In this document: positions 13,110 to 62,385 of the stretch, in pieces
How positions within the stretch are numbered: the stretch's first letter is position 1
How the letters are laid out: the number at the start of each line of letters is the position of its first letter
NCBI RefSeq assembly: GCF_025398195.1
Contig: NZ_JAODNV010000004.1
Coordinates: 186,001 to 250,000, forward strand
DNA length: 64,000 bases
Direction of reading: 5' to 3'
Source of the DNA: Chelativorans petroleitrophicus
Lineage (GTDB): Bacteria; Pseudomonadota; Alphaproteobacteria; Rhizobiales; Rhizobiaceae
Made by a program: the position numbers and the translations under genes
The notes under the pieces: generated by a model
Told to the model about the DNA's origin: nothing
Database searches by the model: none
What the model saw: the letters and a program-made list of their open reading frames with translations, nothing else

Positions 13110-13922
13110 ATGAACAAGTCCCGCATCATTATTCTGGGCGTCGCGGCGCTTGCCGCGATCGGCGCGGGCTATATGGCCAAGAACCTTGCGACTCCCGAGC
13201 AGCAGGTTGCGGCGGAGCCTGTTCCCGAAACGCCAGCGATAGAGCTGGCCGAGGTGCTCGTGCTGGCCCAGGACGTCCCGATGGGCGAGCCGGTGGGCGA
13301 AGCACTGCGCTGGCAGCCCTGGCCGGCCGAAGCCGTCAACGAGAACTTCATCACGCGCAACCGGGAACCCGACGCTGCGGAGGAGCTGCGCAATGGGATC
13401 GCTCGCGTCAATCTTTATGCGGGCGAGCCGCTGAGGCGCGCGAAGCTCATTCGCGCTGATTCGAGCTTCATGTCCGCCATGCTGCCACCGGGCAAGCGGG
13501 CGGTGGCAACGCAGATCGCGGCCGACACCTCAGCGGGCGGCTTCATTCTGCCCGGCGACTATGTGGACGTCATCATGACGCGGCGGGCCGCCAGCGGCAT
13601 GACCGCCAGCGGCTTCATCACGGAAACCATTCTGGAAAACGTCCGCGTGCTCGCCATCGACCAGATGATCCATGAGGATGAGGAGGGCCGGCGCGTCCAG
13701 GTGGGCGAGACGGCCACGCTGGAGCTGACGCCGGAGCAGGCGGAGATCATCACCGCCGCCCAGCAGATGGCCGACCGCCTAACGCTCGCCCTGCGATCCA
13801 TCGCCGATGTCGACCAGGAAGCCGGGACCCAAGGTTCCTATCTCGTCACCGGTGCCGGGAGCGGCAACAGCATCCGCCTGATCAAATCGGGCGAGGTCAC
13901 GATTGTGGGGGCGCCCAGATGA
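13110..13922 (+). CDS. cpaB: Flp pilus assembly protein CpaB/RcpC
   Basis: A 270-residue exported protein: Lys/Arg start and a hydrophobic segment (about 5-22, IIILGVAALAAIGAGYMA), then an SAF-like domain (about 48-115, ending GEPLRRAKL) and the RcpC region (MLPPGKRAVATQI, GDYVDVIM). In Tad/Flp systems CpaB is a periplasmic factor working with the secretin. It is the first gene of a plus-strand pilus operon and overlaps cpaC by four bases. The start has a G-rich Shine-Dalgarno region. Confidence 0.92.
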   Translation: MNKSRIIILGVAALAAIGAGYMAKNLATPEQQVAAEPVPETPAIELAEVLVLAQDVPMGEPVGEALRWQPWPAEAVNENFITRNREPDAAEELRNGIARVNLYAGEPLRRAKLIRADSSFMSAMLPPGKRAVATQIAADTSAGGFILPGDYVDVIMTRRAASGMTASGFITETILENVRVLAIDQMIHEDEEGRRVQVGETATLELTPEQAEIITAAQQMADRLTLALRSIADVDQEAGTQGSYLVTGAGSGNSIRLIKSGEVTIVGAPR

Positions 13923-15475
13923 ATGCCAAGACAAGCAAATCAGTTTTCCGGCGAATTGGCCGCGCGGCCTTTCTGATGGCCGCAGCCGGCTTTGTCGCCG
14001 TGCCGGCAAGCCTGCCCGCCCTTTTCCCTTCGGCGGCTCATGCGGGGGACGTGATCCAGGCGAGGACCGCCCCGCAGCGAATCAAGCTCGGGCTCAACAA
14101 GTCGCTGGTCGTGGATCTTCCGCGCGACGCTTATGACATTCTCGTCGCAAACCCTGCGGTGGCCGATGCGGTTACCCGTACGGCGCGGCGCATCTATCTT
14201 TTCGGCAAGCAGGTGGGGGAGACGAACATCTTCGTCTTCGGCCCCAATGGCGAGCAGATCGCCAGCCTCGACATTCTGGTGGAGCGAGACGTCGCGGGGC
14301 TTGAGGATTATCTCAAGCGCTTCGTCCCGAACTCCGACATCCATGTCGAGCTGATCAACGACAATGTCGTGCTGACGGGCACTGTGGAGACGCCGCTTGA
14401 CGCCATGCGCGCCGCGCAGCTCGCGCAGGCCTTCGTCACCGGCGGCGAGGCCACCACGGGACAATATGCGCTCACAGCGGCGGCACCCACCGATGGCGGC
14501 GGCGTCGACATCAACAATCCTGACGGGCAGCGCCAGAGAAGCAAGATCATCAACATGCTGCAGATCCTGGGGGAGGACCAGGTGACGCTGAAGGTCACGG
14601 TCGCCGAAGTCAGCCGCTCGGTGATGAAGCAGCTCGGCGTGAACATGATCGCTAGCGGCTCTGTGGACGGCATCACCTGGGGCGCGATTTCCGACAGCGT
14701 GTTTGGCCTCGGCAAGCCCATCTCCTCCTCCCAGCTGGCGCTCGGGGGCTCGCTGATCGACGCCTATATCAACGCCATGGAACAGGCCGGTGTGATGAAG
14801 ACGCTGGCTGAGCCGGCATTGACGGCGGTTTCCGGCGAAAAGGCCACCTTCCGTGTCGGCGGCGAATTCAATCTCGTCACGGAGATCGACTCGGACGATC
14901 AGGGGCGCAGCTACGAAGTCGAAAAGATCGAATACGGCATCGGCCTCGAATTCCTGCCGACGGTGCTGTCGGCGGGGCGGATCAGCTTGAAGATCCGCAC
15001 GCAGGTGTCCGAGCCAACGATGCAGGGCAGCGTCGCCGCAAGCGGCGGTGAGGGTATATTCCGGCGGGGTAGAGGCTACACAGCCGGCACAAACCTGATC
15101 TCCATCCGCAAGCGGCTCGCCGACACGACGGTGGAGTTGCCGTCCGGCGGCTCCATGATGATCGCCGGCCTCGTGCAGGACGACGTGCGCCAGGCCATCA
15201 GCGGCCTGCCGGGCCTGTCGAAGGTGCCGGTGCTCGGCACGCTCTTCCGCAGCCGCGACTTCGTGCGCAACGAGACCGAGCTCGTTGTCATTGTCACGCC
15301 CTATCTCTCGCGGCCGGTGGCGCGCACTGCGCTCGTCAAGCCGGACGACAATTTCAACCCGCCGAGCGACGGCGCCGGAACATTCCTTGGCCGTGTCAAC
15401 CGCATCTACGGGACGATGAAGACCAATCTGCCCGACGGCCGATATCACGGCGTCGTGGGCTACATCTACAAGTGA
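13919..15475 (+). CDS. cpaC: Type II/IV secretion secretin CpaC/RcpA (Flp pilus outer-membrane channel)
   Basis: A 518-residue secretin. It has an N-terminal basic region and signal peptide (about 1-42), a pilus-type N domain (IKLGLNKSLVVDLPRDAYDILVANPAVADAV shape), a BON-like segment (about 120-165), and a C-terminal secretin barrel (about 245-450) ending with VPVLGTLFRSRDF and ELVVIVTPYLSRPV. It forms the outer-membrane pore for the Flp pilus. It starts inside the stop of cpaB and is followed by cpaD after 16 bases. Confidence 0.94.
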   Translation: MNAKTSKSVFRRIGRAAFLMAAAGFVAVPASLPALFPSAAHAGDVIQARTAPQRIKLGLNKSLVVDLPRDAYDILVANPAVADAVTRTARRIYLFGKQVGETNIFVFGPNGEQIASLDILVERDVAGLEDYLKRFVPNSDIHVELINDNVVLTGTVETPLDAMRAAQLAQAFVTGGEATTGQYALTAAAPTDGGGVDINNPDGQRQRSKIINMLQILGEDQVTLKVTVAEVSRSVMKQLGVNMIASGSVDGITWGAISDSVFGLGKPISSSQLALGGSLIDAYINAMEQAGVMKTLAEPALTAVSGEKATFRVGGEFNLVTEIDSDDQGRSYEVEKIEYGIGLEFLPTVLSAGRISLKIRTQVSEPTMQGSVAASGGEGIFRRGRGYTAGTNLISIRKRLADTTVELPSGGSMMIAGLVQDDVRQAISGLPGLSKVPVLGTLFRSRDFVRNETELVVIVTPYLSRPVARTALVKPDDNFNPPSDGAGTFLGRVNRIYGTMKTNLPDGRYHGVVGYIYK

Positions 15476-39365: not shown

Positions 39366-39451
39366 GTCCCTCTCCTTGCTTTTGCGCACTCCGGCAAAGA
39401 TTAGCCCTCAGGACTTGCGTGAAACTGGCCGGAACCTTGCCGCGCGCTGGG

Positions 39452-49190: not shown

Positions 49191-49898
49191 TCAGAACGGC
49201 AGCACGGCATCGAGGATCTGTTGGCCGTAGGGCGGTTGCTGCACTTCCGTCAGCCGTCCGCGCCCGCCATAGGAAACCCGCGCCTCGGCAATGCGGTCGT
49301 AGGAGATCGTGTTGTTGGGCCCGATGTCCTCGGGCCGCACGATGCCGGCGATGGTGAGGACACGCAGCTCGGCGTTCACCCGCACCTCCTGGGTGCCCGC
49401 GATGCGAAGGTTTCCGTTGGGAAGCTTCTCGGTCACGATGGCTGCCATAGTGAGCTTCAGATTCTCCGAACGCTCCGTGGCGCCGAAGCCATTTGCCGAG
49501 GTACTGGAGCCTATGGAGCCGTCGGCCGCCGCGGAGCCTCCACTCGAGCCCGCGGTAAACGACCCGGCCAATGCAAGACTTCGGTCGGATTCACGGGAGC
49601 GCTGCGATTCGTTGCGGAAACGCGCGCGGTCGTTGATGGTGATCTCGACGGTGAGGATATCGCCGACATCGAGAGCCCGCGGATCGGTGAAAAGGTGGCT
49701 CTGCCGGTCTCTCCACAGGGAATATCGCGCGACCGGCGGCGAACTTCTCTTCGGATCGGTATAGGCCGAACCGAGCGTCGGCTGCGCGCCGATGCCGACC
49801 GGCGAAAGGGCCGGCGGCTTGCCGATCTCTTCGGTGGCGACACAGCCCGAGACCACAATGGCCGCGAGGACGCCCAAGCCGCGCAGAAGGACCGTCAT
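49191..49898 (-). CDS. flgH: Flagellar L-ring lipoprotein FlgH
   Basis: A 235-residue lipoprotein with lipobox VVSGC (Cys about 19) and FlgH motifs SLWRDRQSHLFTDPRALDVGDILTVEI and the C-terminal GRGRLTEVQQPPYGQQILDAVLPF. It forms the outer-membrane L-ring. It overlaps motE by four bases. Confidence 0.95.
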   Translation of the reverse strand: MTVLLRGLGVLAAIVVSGCVATEEIGKPPALSPVGIGAQPTLGSAYTDPKRSSPPVARYSLWRDRQSHLFTDPRALDVGDILTVEITINDRARFRNESQRSRESDRSLALAGSFTAGSSGGSAAADGSIGSSTSANGFGATERSENLKLTMAAIVTEKLPNGNLRIAGTQEVRVNAELRVLTIAGIVRPEDIGPNNTISYDRIAEARVSYGGRGRLTEVQQPPYGQQILDAVLPF

Positions 49899-50407
49899 GA
49901 TGGATCGCTCGGGCGAGCGGCACTCGCCATGATGGTGGTCAGCGCCCCGGCGGTCTTGCTGTCCATTTCGTTGAGGATCGTGGCAGCGCTGCGCGGATCG
50001 AGCTTCATCAGGATCGCGGCGGCAAGCTCCACCCGCACCTCGGCCAGACGCTCGGCCGCAGCATCAGGCCGCATGCCGGAATAGATGTTCACTAGGTCCC
50101 GCTCGGCCTGTTCCAGGAAGGAATTGCGCCGGGCGAGCCACTCCTCATATTCGGCACGCTTCTTTTCCAGCGCCTCGATCCGGACGTCGATCTCCTTGCG
50201 CAGCTTCTCAAGCTCCGCCTCCTGCAGAAGGTAGCGGCGGTCGCGCGCGGCGTCGACGATGTTAGCGCAGTAGCGCTCCATTTCGTCATTGCTTGCCGTC
50301 TCCTCGGCGCGGGCACTGCCCGGCAACATGGATGCGGACAGGAAAATGGCGAGCGCTAGGGAGGCCCGGCTGGGAAGGGAGCGGTATTTCGGATGGCAAG
50401 CTCTCAT
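49895..50407 (-). CDS. motE: MotE chaperone for MotC
   Basis: About 170 residues from ATG 50407 (GTG 50413 is also possible). A signal peptide (about 1-35) is followed by a coiled-coil region (ELEKLRKEIDVRIEALEKKRAEYEEW) and a C-terminal DPRSAATILNEMDSKTAGALTTIM motif found in MotE/MgtE-N-like proteins. In Sinorhizobium MotE stabilises MotC in the periplasm. It lies between flgI and flgH. Confidence 0.9.
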   Translation of the reverse strand: MRACHPKYRSLPSRASLALAIFLSASMLPGSARAEETASNDEMERYCANIVDAARDRRYLLQEAELEKLRKEIDVRIEALEKKRAEYEEWLARRNSFLEQAERDLVNIYSGMRPDAAAERLAEVRVELAAAILMKLDPRSAATILNEMDSKTAGALTTIMASAARPSDPS

Positions 50408-50415
50408 GGACACAC

Positions 50416-53099: not shown

Positions 53100-53521
53100 G
53101 AGCTCCGCAACAGATCGATGGTCATGGAAATCATCTCGCGCGCCTGCTTCATGGTCTGCAGGTTCGCCTCATAGCTGCGGCTGGCCTCGCGCATGTCGGC
53201 CATCTCGATCAGCATGTTCACGTTCGGCAGCTTTACGTAGCCGAACTCGTCCGCGGCCTCGTGGCCCGGCTCGTACTCGATCCGGAAGTCCGATTGGTCG
53301 CGCGCGATAGCCGAAACCCGGACCATGCTGCCGCCCGTGGCGCGGTCAAGCTCGGCGGTGAAGCTGATCGTCTTGCGCCGATAGGGATCACCACCTGGAA
53401 CGTCGCTTGTCGATTGCGCGTTTGCGAGGTTTTCCGAAACGACGCGCATGCGCTCCGATTGCGCGACCAGCCCGGAACCCGCGACCTTGACGGCGGCGAC
53501 AAGTGCGTCGGCCATTCTCAC
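53096..53521 (-). CDS. flgC: Flagellar proximal rod protein FlgC
   Basis: A 141-residue rod protein with [29 protein letters not shown] near the N-terminus and the [23 protein letters not shown] region at the C-terminus. It overlaps flgB by four bases. Confidence 0.94.
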
Positions 53522-53892
53522 CCCCTCGCTGTCATCATCATCATGCGGTGAAACGCCTTGACGATCGCCGTGTTGAGCTCGAAAGCGCGGCGGATTTCAC
53601 CCGCCTTGCCCAGCTCCTGCTCGAGCATGACGCTGTTGCCGGAGGGCAGTACCGGCGAGCCCTCCTGCTCCTTGACGGCTATGGGCTGCTCCTCGCCCGC
53701 GTAGCGGTGCGCGGCGTGCGTGGCCCGCATGGTCACGCTCGTGTCGTTCAGAACGTTCTCGAACGGCTCCACATCGACCGCCCTGTAGCCCGGCGTGTTG
53801 ATATTGGCGATGTTGCCGGCGACGGCCGCCTGCCGGACCGAAAGCCAGCGCGCCTGCTGCGAGGCCAGATCGAACAGGTTTACAGGTTGCAT
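53518..53892 (-). CDS. flgB: Flagellar proximal rod protein FlgB
   Basis: A 124-residue rod protein. ATG 53892 ([21 protein letters not shown]) keeps the normal FlgB N-terminus; the longer open frame upstream is coding in another frame. It has [22 protein letters not shown] and a C-terminal [14 protein letters not shown] helix. The start lies inside the end of the upstream membrane-protein gene. Confidence 0.93.
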
Positions 53893-54542
53893 CGCGGCTC
53901 TCCCGGAATTTGCAAGGAAGATAGGCGGCCAGTCTTGCGCGGGCCTTGCGTGCTCTCGGCGCAAAGCGGGATCTTCCGGTCATCGGAGGTCACGAGAACC
54001 CAGCTTCCATCCTCTCCGAGCACCACGTCGTCCACGCGGCTTCCGTCGGGCAGCGCGGAGCCGCGCTCGACGATCCAGAATCCGTCCTTATCCTCGATGA
54101 TGGCGCGCCCGTTGACCGCGTCGATCAGGCGGAAAGGCACCAGATCTCCCGGGAAGGGCTGATGCAGCGGAGCGTCCGTCTCCAGCGGTCCAGGGCTGAT
54201 GGTGCCGGTCGCCCTGAAGTCGAGGAGGTTCACGTGAGCCCAGTCGGCCGGCGTTAATGCGCCCGCCGCGGACCAGTCTTCAGAACCCGCATCTGCCGCG
54301 CCCGAAAAGGTGAGCGGCCTGATGCCGAACTCATCCTGATTGAAGAAGATGTACCACGGAAAGACGGCGCAAAGCGTGGCGAGCGCAATTCCCGCGAGGG
54401 CGAAGAACCAGTCGCTTCTGTCGCGTCCCTCCTCTACCAGCCTTACAGGCGCGGCCTTTCGCGGCTCCGCCGGAAGGTCCTCCGGCAGTTCCTCGACAGG
54501 GGTGGAGTCGGGAAGCACTAGGCCGGCAAGCCTATCGGCCAT
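53880..54542 (-). CDS. Bitopic membrane protein with a GspC-like periplasmic domain, in the flagellar operon
   Basis: A 220-residue protein not named in standard flagellar sets. It has a Pro/Glu-rich cytoplasmic N-terminus (1-44), one membrane segment (about 48-70, FALAGIALATLCAVFPWYIFF) and a periplasmic part. Residues about 110-200 (NLLDFRATGTISPGP, AIIEDKDGFWIVERGSALPDG, VVLGEDGSWVLVTSDDRKIPL) follow the strand pattern of the HR domain of GspC/PulC, the secretion protein that contacts the secretin. It lies between fliI and flgB with overlaps at both ends, so it is translated with rod genes. The domain assignment is by eye. Confidence 0.75.
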   Translation of the reverse strand: MADRLAGLVLPDSTPVEELPEDLPAEPRKAAPVRLVEEGRDRSDWFFALAGIALATLCAVFPWYIFFNQDEFGIRPLTFSGAADAGSEDWSAAGALTPADWAHVNLLDFRATGTISPGPLETDAPLHQPFPGDLVPFRLIDAVNGRAIIEDKDGFWIVERGSALPDGSRVDDVVLGEDGSWVLVTSDDRKIPLCAESTQGPRKTGRLSSLQIPGEPRCNL

Positions 54543-55896
54543 GATTTTCCTCCCTGGCCTTCAAATGCGCGGCCAATTCGGCAAAGGCGTCTGCGGCGGG
54601 CGGGTCCTTGGGGCTCTGCCGCAAGGCGTCGTAGATGACCGGCACCTGGCGCACCGCCAGATCAAGTTCGGGATCGATGCCCGGCTGAAAACCGCCGAGC
54701 AGGCGGATGTCGCGCGTTTCCTCGTAACGGGCGATCATCGCTTTCAAACGCTGGATCACGGCCCGCTTGTCCTCGCCCCATGCGCGGTCCGCCAGACGCG
54801 AAATGGAGGCGAGCGGATTGACGGGCGGGTAGCGCCCTTCCTCTGCAATGGCGCGGTCCAGCACCACATGGCCGTCGAGAACCCCGCGCACGCAGTCGGC
54901 CACGGGGTCGTTATGATCGTCTCCGTCCACGAGAACGGACAGGATGGCGGTGATGGAGCCGCGCCCGCTCTCGCCCGGGCCCGCCCGCTCCAATAGGCCC
55001 GGTATGTCGGTGAAGACGGAGGCCGGGTAGCCACGCGCCACAGGCGGCTCGCCGGCAGCCGTCGCCACTTCGCGGGCGGCATGGGCGAAACGGGTAATGG
55101 AATCCACGATGAGGAGGACCTTCTCGTCCCGGTCGCGAAAGCCTTCGGCCACGCGCATGGCGGTGTCAGCAGCCCGGCGGCGCATCATGGCGCTTTCGTC
55201 GCTTGTTGCGACCACAGCTACCGTCTTTGCGAGGCCAGCCTCGCCGAGTGTGTCTTCCAGAAATTCGCGCACTTCCCGTCCGCGCTCGCCGATCAGCGCC
55301 AGCACCACCGTGTCGAAGGCGTCGGCGCGCGCCAGCATCGCAAGCAGCGTCGATTTGCCGACGCCCGAGCCGGCGAAGATGCCGATGCGCTGACCATGAC
55401 AGAGTGGGGTGAACAGGTCGATGACGCGCACGCCTGTGGCAAAGGGAGTGGTCACACGCTGACGGCGGAGTGCGGGCGGAGTGCGCGGCCGGTCTTCCGA
55501 GGCTTCGGCGGGCGGTCTGATGAGCGGCGGCCCGTCATCGACCGCGCGCCCCAGCGCGTCGATCACCCGCCCGCGCCAGCTTTCATGCGGGACGATGTCG
55601 ATCACGCCGGCGGCGAATACCGGCTGGCCGAGAGCGATGTCGGCGCCCGCCTCGTAGGGAGCCACAAGCACATCACCGGCGGCGATTCGCACCACCTCTC
55701 CGCGCCGCTCCATGCCGCGGCTGCGATAGGAGACGATGTCGCCCAGAAGGACCGCGTGCGAAATGCCGCGCACGCGAAAACTGCTCGGCGTGACTTCCGA
55801 GACGCGCCCCCCGCGCCGCACCAGATGGCGCGGGTCACGGAAACGCATATAGGCGGCGGCAAGCGCCTCCAGCGCATTCGCGGCGGGCCGGGCCAT
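54532..55896 (-). CDS. fliI: Flagellar export ATPase FliI
   Basis: A 454-residue F1-beta-like ATPase with Walker A GIFAGSGVGKST (Lys181), the LIGERGREVREFLED motif, Walker B LLIVDSITRFAHAAREVA and PPVARGYPASVF. It powers export of rod, hook and filament subunits. It lies between flgF and the GspC-like gene, overlapping the latter by 11 bases. Confidence 0.95.
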   Translation of the reverse strand: MARPAANALEALAAAYMRFRDPRHLVRRGGRVSEVTPSSFRVRGISHAVLLGDIVSYRSRGMERRGEVVRIAAGDVLVAPYEAGADIALGQPVFAAGVIDIVPHESWRGRVIDALGRAVDDGPPLIRPPAEASEDRPRTPPALRRQRVTTPFATGVRVIDLFTPLCHGQRIGIFAGSGVGKSTLLAMLARADAFDTVVLALIGERGREVREFLEDTLGEAGLAKTVAVVATSDESAMMRRRAADTAMRVAEGFRDRDEKVLLIVDSITRFAHAAREVATAAGEPPVARGYPASVFTDIPGLLERAGPGESGRGSITAILSVLVDGDDHNDPVADCVRGVLDGHVVLDRAIAEEGRYPPVNPLASISRLADRAWGEDKRAVIQRLKAMIARYEETRDIRLLGGFQPGIDPELDLAVRQVPVIYDALRQSPKDPPAADAFAELAAHLKAREENHGR

Positions 55897-57397: not shown

Positions 57398-57530
57398 GCC
57401 GCTGTCCCCCAGGTCCGGGGCAGACGCTAGCGCGCAAGCCTTGCGCGAGGCTTTTCTTCCCCTGCTTCAAGCCTCACGCAAGCCACAGCCGCTACTTCGG
57501 ATATGGTTTCAATCATGCGAAGGGCGGAAA
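57398..57530. promoter_or_regulatory. Divergent flagellar promoter region with palindromes and CGCAAGCC repeats
   Basis: This 133-bp gap serves both flagellar arms. CGCGCAA-GCC-TTGCGCG (57431-57447) is a perfect interrupted palindrome, overlapped by AAGCCT-6-AGGCTT (57436-57453) followed by TTCTTCCCC. The octamer CGCAAGCC recurs at 57433 and 57477. These are good candidates for activator sites (for example FtcR), which is inferred. Confidence 0.5.
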
Positions 57531-62292: not shown

Positions 62293-62385
62293 CGGTAACT
62301 GTTCAGCGCTTCGTCGCCGGAGAGCTGCCGGCGATCCCACCTTCGCGCAAGCTTCGCCGCCTATCCTGAGTGAAAGGGGGCGCGA

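Follow-up and report, generated by a model that had tools for sequence, protein, structure and literature searches.

A bitopic protein with a predicted HR-like domain encoded beside fliI: a candidate accessory tether of the Hyphomicrobiales-type flagellum

Introduction

Computational analysis of a stretch of DNA of 64,000 nucleotides (hereafter, the window) establishes a gene between the flagellar genes fliI and flgB, here called X, together with the topology and fold predicted for its product, the kinship of its C-terminal domain with DotF-type domains and its association with flagella across genomes. By analogy with other envelope machines, an even chance is given to the reading that X acts in the Hyphomicrobiales-type flagellum as an accessory tether, anchored in the inner membrane and docking on a periplasmic ring. 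A broader proposal, namely that the Hyphomicrobiales motor uses an HR-type docking adaptor, with X forming a ring of tethers from the inner membrane to a lineage-specific periplasmic ring, is possible, at somewhat less than even odds. To date, HR-type modules have been described in secretin- and type IV-based machines. If the proposal is true, a docking module would be shared between unrelated envelope machines, and a DotF/GspC-type domain in the flagellum would make one adaptor common to three classes of envelope machine. X is a concrete candidate for as yet unassigned inner-membrane or periplasmic parts of the alpha-proteobacterial motor, and it is conserved, small and present in a genetically tractable group. 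Besides the papers cited below, the sources are PMC10954123, PMC7277832, PMC6406911, PMC8781033, PMC10771577 and PMC4591828.

The gene and its locus

The X open reading frame (ORF) is intact and lies inside the flagellar gene cluster, with fliI on one side and flgB on the other; the coordinates of the ORF and its neighbours (Table 1) confirm the placement given in the initial annotation. The names motA, fliM, fliN, fliG and flhB are used in the window according to the gene order of an annotated S. meliloti record. Since homologues align with window X (26-52% identity) and a profile detects X in 100 genomes out of 151 surveyed in the family, X is regarded as a real gene, and a chance ORF or artefact is ruled out.

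The family had been described as apparently unnamed, and so it proved: neither Pfam nor NCBIfam contains a model matching window X, and scans of its relatives against both collections only gave weak matches to unrelated families (best E 0.013). In database records X appears between fliI and flgB with the label "flagellar protein" (S. meliloti Ak57) or "hypothetical protein" (Phyllobacterium sp. 628), and no study on X itself was found in the open-licence literature. Gene order, together with a primer label next to SMc03025 (fliI), suggests that SMc03026 is the X of S. meliloti. In strain Ak57, a transposase gene of the ISRm16 family (L111:9657-10820) separates X from flgB.

Table 1. Coordinates in the window of X, its parts, its neighbours and the conserved upstream elements
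Feature	Position	Strand	Basis
X, bitopic protein (predicted), 220 aa, ATG start	53880..54542	-	ORF and profile search
X N-terminal cytoplasmic part (predicted), aa 1-40, low confidence, differing in length and sequence among relatives	54423..54542	-	model, alignment
X TM helix (predicted), aa 41-67, ending in strongly conserved FPWYIFFNQ	54342..54422	-	model, alignment
X periplasmic linker (predicted), aa 68-127, low confidence	54162..54341	-	model, alignment
X C-terminal HR-like beta domain (predicted), aa 128-195, six strands in 138-193	53958..54161	-	model
X C-terminal extension, aa 196-220, seen only in this genome	53883..53957	-	locus comparison
fliI, export ATPase, upstream neighbour of X, 11-nt overlap	54532..55896	-	family match
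flgB, proximal rod protein, downstream neighbour of X, 13-nt overlap	53518..53892	-	family match
Conserved flgB upstream element, whole	53922..53949	-	motif search
GCAAG-N6-GCAAG tandem repeat, upstream of flgB	53934-53949	-	motif search
CGCAAG-N9-CTA, upstream of flgE	39402-39419	-	exact match
CGCAAG-N9-CTA, upstream of flgB	53922-53939	-	exact match
CGCAAG-N9-CTA, upstream of DUF1217 gene	57428-57445	-	exact match
CGCAAG-N9-CTA, upstream of motA	57477-57494	+	exact match
CGCAAG-N9-CTA, upstream of flhA	62346-62363	+	exact match

Membrane topology and fold

The description of X as a single-pass inner-membrane protein agrees with two properties of its sequence: (i) it contains a single hydrophobic stretch (the top 19-aa window has a mean hydrophobicity of 1.99, the runner-up 0.65); and (ii) K and R are richer on the N-terminal flank of the TM helix in 102 of 107 loci, equal in four and opposite in one (these loci include the best 80 of 172). 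Since the positive flank is on the N-terminal side, the C-terminus is placed outside, and X is predicted to be bitopic, with a cytoplasmic N-terminus and a periplasmic C-terminus. In an alignment of 28 sequences (A3), the best conserved stretch spans residues 58-74 (mean top-residue fraction 0.90), followed by the C-terminal domain (0.75), the weakly conserved linker (0.52) and the cytoplasmic part (0.42), which exceeds 200 residues in the longest relatives. Another alignment (A1) comprised 18 of the 27 X loci available at that stage; loci L027, L029 and L030 lack an X-type ORF.

Two AlphaFold models were considered. Model 1, of X itself (28 sequences), has a mean pLDDT of 68.6 and a pTM of 0.37, with local pLDDT values of 80-96 in the TM helix and about 90 in a six-stranded domain (strands 138-143, 146-151, 154-158, 169-175, 181-185 and 190-193). 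Model 2, built from 7 sequences headed by a Mesorhizobium homologue, has a pTM of 0.34 and a pLDDT of about 90 in the domain. The overall confidence of both models is low. In the Foldseek search, ranks 1-4 corresponded to 3jc8_Pa, DotF (probability 1.00), PilP and PilP, with E values of only 0.02-0.17, and the chains ranked highest were then aligned with VIA-align. The same ten HR-type chains fill rows 1-10 for both models. The best match is in both cases GspC 3oss_C, with Z 8.0 over 56 aa at 1.9 A for model 1 (row after the ten, 3.8) and Z 8.6 over 54 aa at 1.4 A for model 2 (row after the ten, 4.6), a Z near 8 being on its own about the level found for models without clear relatives. Further matches of model 1 are DotF 7muc (Z 7.7), PilP 2lc4 (Z 7.7), PulC and LspC, and the PilP chains 2lc4, 2ivw and 2y4y reach Z 6.6-7.7 to the X models. 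By entry title, eight of the ten top chains are GspC, PulC, LspC, DotF or PilP, and the 7muc chain was confirmed as DotF by a PDB profile search. The chains 3jc8_Pa and 4av2_M belong to type IV pilus entries and are presumably PilP.

The HR fold is persuasive because Z drops sharply below the HR set and because both models agree on that set. Furthermore, the modelled domain appears to be made of two three-stranded sheets, the arrangement that defines the HR-like superfamily; residues 208-266 of DotF form two three-stranded sheets, with DALI matches to GspC (3OSS) and PilP (PMC8486379). An HR fold of the C-terminal domain is, on these models, well supported, and the comparison of predicted structures with GspC and PilP HR domains, which the initial annotation had proposed as a check, came out in its favour. 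In a viral structure library no match to X was obtained at E<=0.001; row 12 was B6D7L3, an unnamed 64-residue protein (Foldseek probability 1.00, E 0.05).

Kinship with other HR-domain proteins

The periplasmic segment had been likened to the HR domain of GspC. As regards fold, this likeness stands in two models; GspC as the nearest relative does not, DotF/IcmG being closer by sequence. A domain profile built from X domains and four long paralogues (A4) found DotF as its best match in the PDB (E 0.028, 55 of 68 positions), while a profile of flagellar members only (A6) gave no HR-family match in the PDB at E<=10. Over 337 genomes of the class, A4 had matches in 15, among them the genome of the window and one from its order in which the match is a long paralogue. 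Outside the order, 12 of 13 matches are DotF-like C-termini, as judged by eye; L204 is oxidoreductase-like and was rejected as a false match. Two of the DotF-like proteins were scanned and matched NCBIfam IcmG_DotF (E 5e-13 and 2e-8, both below the curated cut-off), and one of these two adjoins a DotG/IcmE fragment. Three of six scanned ORFs adjoining DotF-like genes gave T4BSS-type matches (a DotG/IcmE fragment and TraQ at L192, TraQ at L196); the other scanned neighbours gave SecA at L202 and no match at L195 and L197. When the 17 flagellar domains of A6 were compared by hhalign with 11 of those 12 alpha-proteobacterial DotF-like domains (A5, which leaves out L200), the result was 97.2% and E 4.1e-11 over 54 columns, and it is not fully independent because A5 was gathered with A4, which contains X. 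Taken together, the fold matches and the hhalign result point to a protein with a GspC-like fold whose nearest sequence relative seems to be a DotF/IcmG-type domain and not GspC.

As in DotF/IcmG and in TraP (IncI1), the HR-like domain of X is located at the extreme C-terminus, behind a TM. Nevertheless, X is shorter than DotF/IcmG, its model lacks a confident coiled coil, and the T4BSS genes (DotG, DotH) have no counterpart beside X, whose neighbourhood is fliI-X-flgB. At E<=1, the 18 X members scanned gave no match to NCBIfam IcmG_DotF or TraP; the long paralogues have weak matches to NCBIfam TraP (E 2e-4 to 8e-3).

GspC, the top structural match of both models, has a bitopic layout, like X. 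But in X nothing is folded beyond the HR-like domain and the locus is flagellar. Pfam T2SSC matches neither window X (E<=1) nor 28 members, PF11356 has no match anywhere in the genome of X, and X is not encoded with a T2SS, its neighbours being flagellar. PilP, in turn, shares its fold with the X domain but is a lipoprotein, according to PDB entry titles, while X is TM-anchored; the PilP models of Pfam and NCBIfam match neither X nor the members scanned. Family models and gene neighbourhood rule out X as GspC, PilP or DotF proper.

Rhizobial MotF, a FliL paralogue, is, like X, a single-TM protein of Hyphomicrobiales flagellar clusters; X, however, models as HR-like, without a FliL-like periplasmic domain. 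The identity of X with MotF is ruled out: in L148 and L206-L209 both genes are present, a FliL-like motF upstream and a divergent X downstream of it. The Cereibacter proteins MotK and MotE were likewise set aside as different, on their published descriptions.

Distribution across genomes

Among 61 related genomes, a single-sequence query of X gave matches in 27, and a profile search in 28, of which 26 are genomes of the window's family and two are domain-only matches outside it; the single-sequence match in G014 was unconfirmed by the profile. In the loci fetched (tblastn), fliI adjoins X in 27 of 27 (26 genes) and flgB lies downstream of X in 24 of 27, with two loci at a contig edge and one true exception (L022, G032).

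An even draw of 151 genomes from the family was searched for X, flgC and FliI, as the gene-neighbourhood survey envisaged in the initial annotation. The cut-offs set for this survey were 1e-80 for FliI and 1e-20 for FlgC. X was found in 100 genomes, flgC in 123 and FliI in 116. Of the 100 genomes with X, 99 have flgC (the exception, G827, which depends on these cut-offs, carries X on the same contig as fliI), and X is absent from all 27 genomes that lack both flgC and fliI (Fisher p for X vs flgC, 9.9e-15, over 151 genomes and with phylogeny ignored). In 94 of the 100, X lies directly downstream of fliI, the aligned parts being <500 nt apart.

Both flgC and fliI occur in 115 genomes, of which 98 have X and 17 have no detectable X. 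The arrangement of these genes differs as follows: (i) fliI and flgC are on the same strand within 6 kb in 94 genomes, 90 of them with X; and (ii) they are otherwise arranged in 21 genomes, 13 of them without detectable X, four with a divergent X and four with X after fliI. The divergent X lies downstream of flhA-fliR and a FliL-like motF (G784, G793, G838 and G872; loci L206-L209). The four genomes of the first group without X (G200, G811, G829 and G847) are small, at 1.2-1.9 Mb, and keep fliI-flgB with no X or remnant detected between the two genes; the fliI of G200 has two in-frame stops. G820 retains an X flanked by flgF and flgB, although fliI was found neither there nor, at E<=1e-80, elsewhere in the genome, an exception that also depends on the cut-off.

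An order-wide profile search matched 70 of 397 genomes. Outside the family, the matches mostly comprise the C-terminal domain alone and many are long coiled-coil paralogues; among 15 flagellate genomes with flgC outside the family, one has a domain match. X is not a general feature of the order. Loci from its other families have X upstream of DUF1217-flgF-fliI-flgE (L156, L162) or overlapping a FliL-like motF by 4 nt (L148). The long paralogues at L152, L153, L154 and L155 (about 300-350 aa) have the same C-terminal domain and lie beside housekeeping genes; downstream of the one at L155, a PF13629 pilus N-terminal-domain protein is encoded.

These data support that X belongs with flagellar genes. 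They also weigh on the alternative that X serves a pilus-type secretin machine and is merely parked in the flagellar cluster: the genome's sole PF00263 match does lie in the window (about 14774-15307, in ORF 13919-15475(+)), and GspC binds a secretin through its HR domain (PMC3169554), but X tracks flagella over the 151 genomes and in several different flagellar neighbourhoods, which makes this alternative highly improbable.

Gene overlaps and transcription unit

X had been reported to overlap both neighbours and to be translated with rod genes. The overlap with fliI is found in 102 of 107 loci, among which are two duplicate pairs (L025 and L028 are one gene; L014 and L031 are from one genome) and the best 80 of 172, mostly Mesorhizobium; the rule used for the start of X, taking the first start codon <=60 nt ahead of the fliI stop, favours overlap. 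The overlap with flgB did not hold up beyond the window: over 103 measurable loci (including the best 80 of 172), the X-flgB distance is negative only in the window's locus, and elsewhere the two genes are at least 63 nt apart. The window ORF continues for about 27 codons beyond the stop of its relatives, through the flgB upstream element, and may have lost its stop codon only here, through either a true change or a sequencing error. Since the overlap is found only in this genome, translational coupling with flgB is ruled out as a family trait.

The overlap with fliI would suit an export-apparatus accessory, that is, a membrane anchor or periplasmic guard acting with FliI and the export gate to help early rod substrates (FlgB, for example) across. 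So would two results of the survey: (i) seven of the eight family genomes with flgC but without FliI at E<=1e-80 also lack X (G016, G019, G025, G805, G831, G846 and G870); and (ii) X is inside the flhA-fliR segment in L148 and L206-L209. This role is nonetheless unlikely. X does not strictly need FliI, because G820 keeps X without a detected fliI (E<=1e-80), and X is not downstream of fliI in L156, L162, L148 and L206-L209. Furthermore, a motility screen in A. fabrum found fliI and export-gate genes, with no X named in the excerpted text (PMC9812332). At a lower FliI cut-off, G016, G019 and G025 give weak matches only, which were taken as ATP synthase. The window's genome also encodes a second FliI-like ATPase (G000:C65:4793-6046(-)), 43% identical to window FliI.

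As for transcription, CGCAAG-N9-CTA has five exact sites in the window against an expectation of 0.32; all of them precede flagellar genes, and the element looks like a flagellar promoter. A related repeat, NCAAG-N6-NCAAG, occurs in 97 of 100 intergenic regions before flgB against a shuffle expectation of 0.165, these regions coming from related genomes and thus not being independent (the loci include the best 80 of 172; L006, L007 and L090, with a gap >400 nt, are left out of the count). It usually starts 56-60 nt before flgB, and in the window it sits within the extended X frame. At flgB, the element includes a tandem repeat of 11-nt period, of the kind bound by OmpR-type regulators. The element at 57428..57445 probably marks the start of a unit DUF1217-flgF-fliI-X, and flgB is probably transcribed from a start of its own. 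Given both elements, the one before the DUF1217 gene and flgB's own, X seems to be part of the DUF1217-flgF-fliI unit. The claim of joint translation with rod genes holds only in part, as flgB has a conserved promoter-like motif of its own.

This arrangement bears on another alternative, in which X clamps or lines the rod or the P-ring. The nearby flgF and flgB encode rod proteins, and in known machines the HR fold docks on rings (PMC8486379, PMC3169554). Yet the flgB overlap is peculiar to this genome among loci that include the best 80 of 172, a conserved element of its own precedes flgB, and the divergent X of L148 and L206-L209 does not adjoin rod genes; a clamp of this kind is quite improbable, even more so than an export accessory.

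Proposed role

In known machines, PilP among them, the HR fold is carried on a TM or lipid anchor and docks on ring subunits. The HR domain of GspC docks on the secretin N0 domain (PMC3169554), and DotF docks on DotH and Dis3 (PMC8486379). Because X shares this anchor-plus-HR layout, we infer a tether between an inner-membrane motor part and a periplasmic ring. In the proposed mechanism, (i) the TM helix and the highly conserved juxtamembrane motif would anchor X to a motor part in the inner membrane; (ii) the linker would span the near periplasm; and (iii) the HR-like domain would dock on a subunit of a periplasmic ring. A shared HR fold does not in itself show function, as HR-like domains are also found in the long paralogues beside housekeeping genes.

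The role of X would be stabilising or accessory. X is probably not essential: an essential role is unlikely because the four small genomes keep fliI-flgB without X and because the A. fabrum screen names no such gene. That screen (37 proteins, with an average of 8 insertions per gene in the cluster) took forward strongly non-motile mutants only, and its excerpted text names no gene between fliI and flgB, which is relevant only if A. fabrum carries X (PMC9812332).

With regard to the docking target, the first choice would be the stator-side ring system (MotE E-ring, MotC spokes, FliL/MotF) and the second the P-ring. The stator side is favoured because the divergent X adjoins motF and because the rhizobial motor carries extra MotE and MotC (PMC13023049). 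The same 2026 review on the E-ring states that there is as yet no cryo-ET on the S. meliloti motor (PMC13023049). The MotE of the window (49895-50413, -) matches NCBIfam collar_FlbB with E 3.6e-6, below the cut-off, in line with the E-ring proposal. FliL and MotF reportedly have stator roles in S. meliloti, to judge from the title of a 2022 study by Sobe et al.
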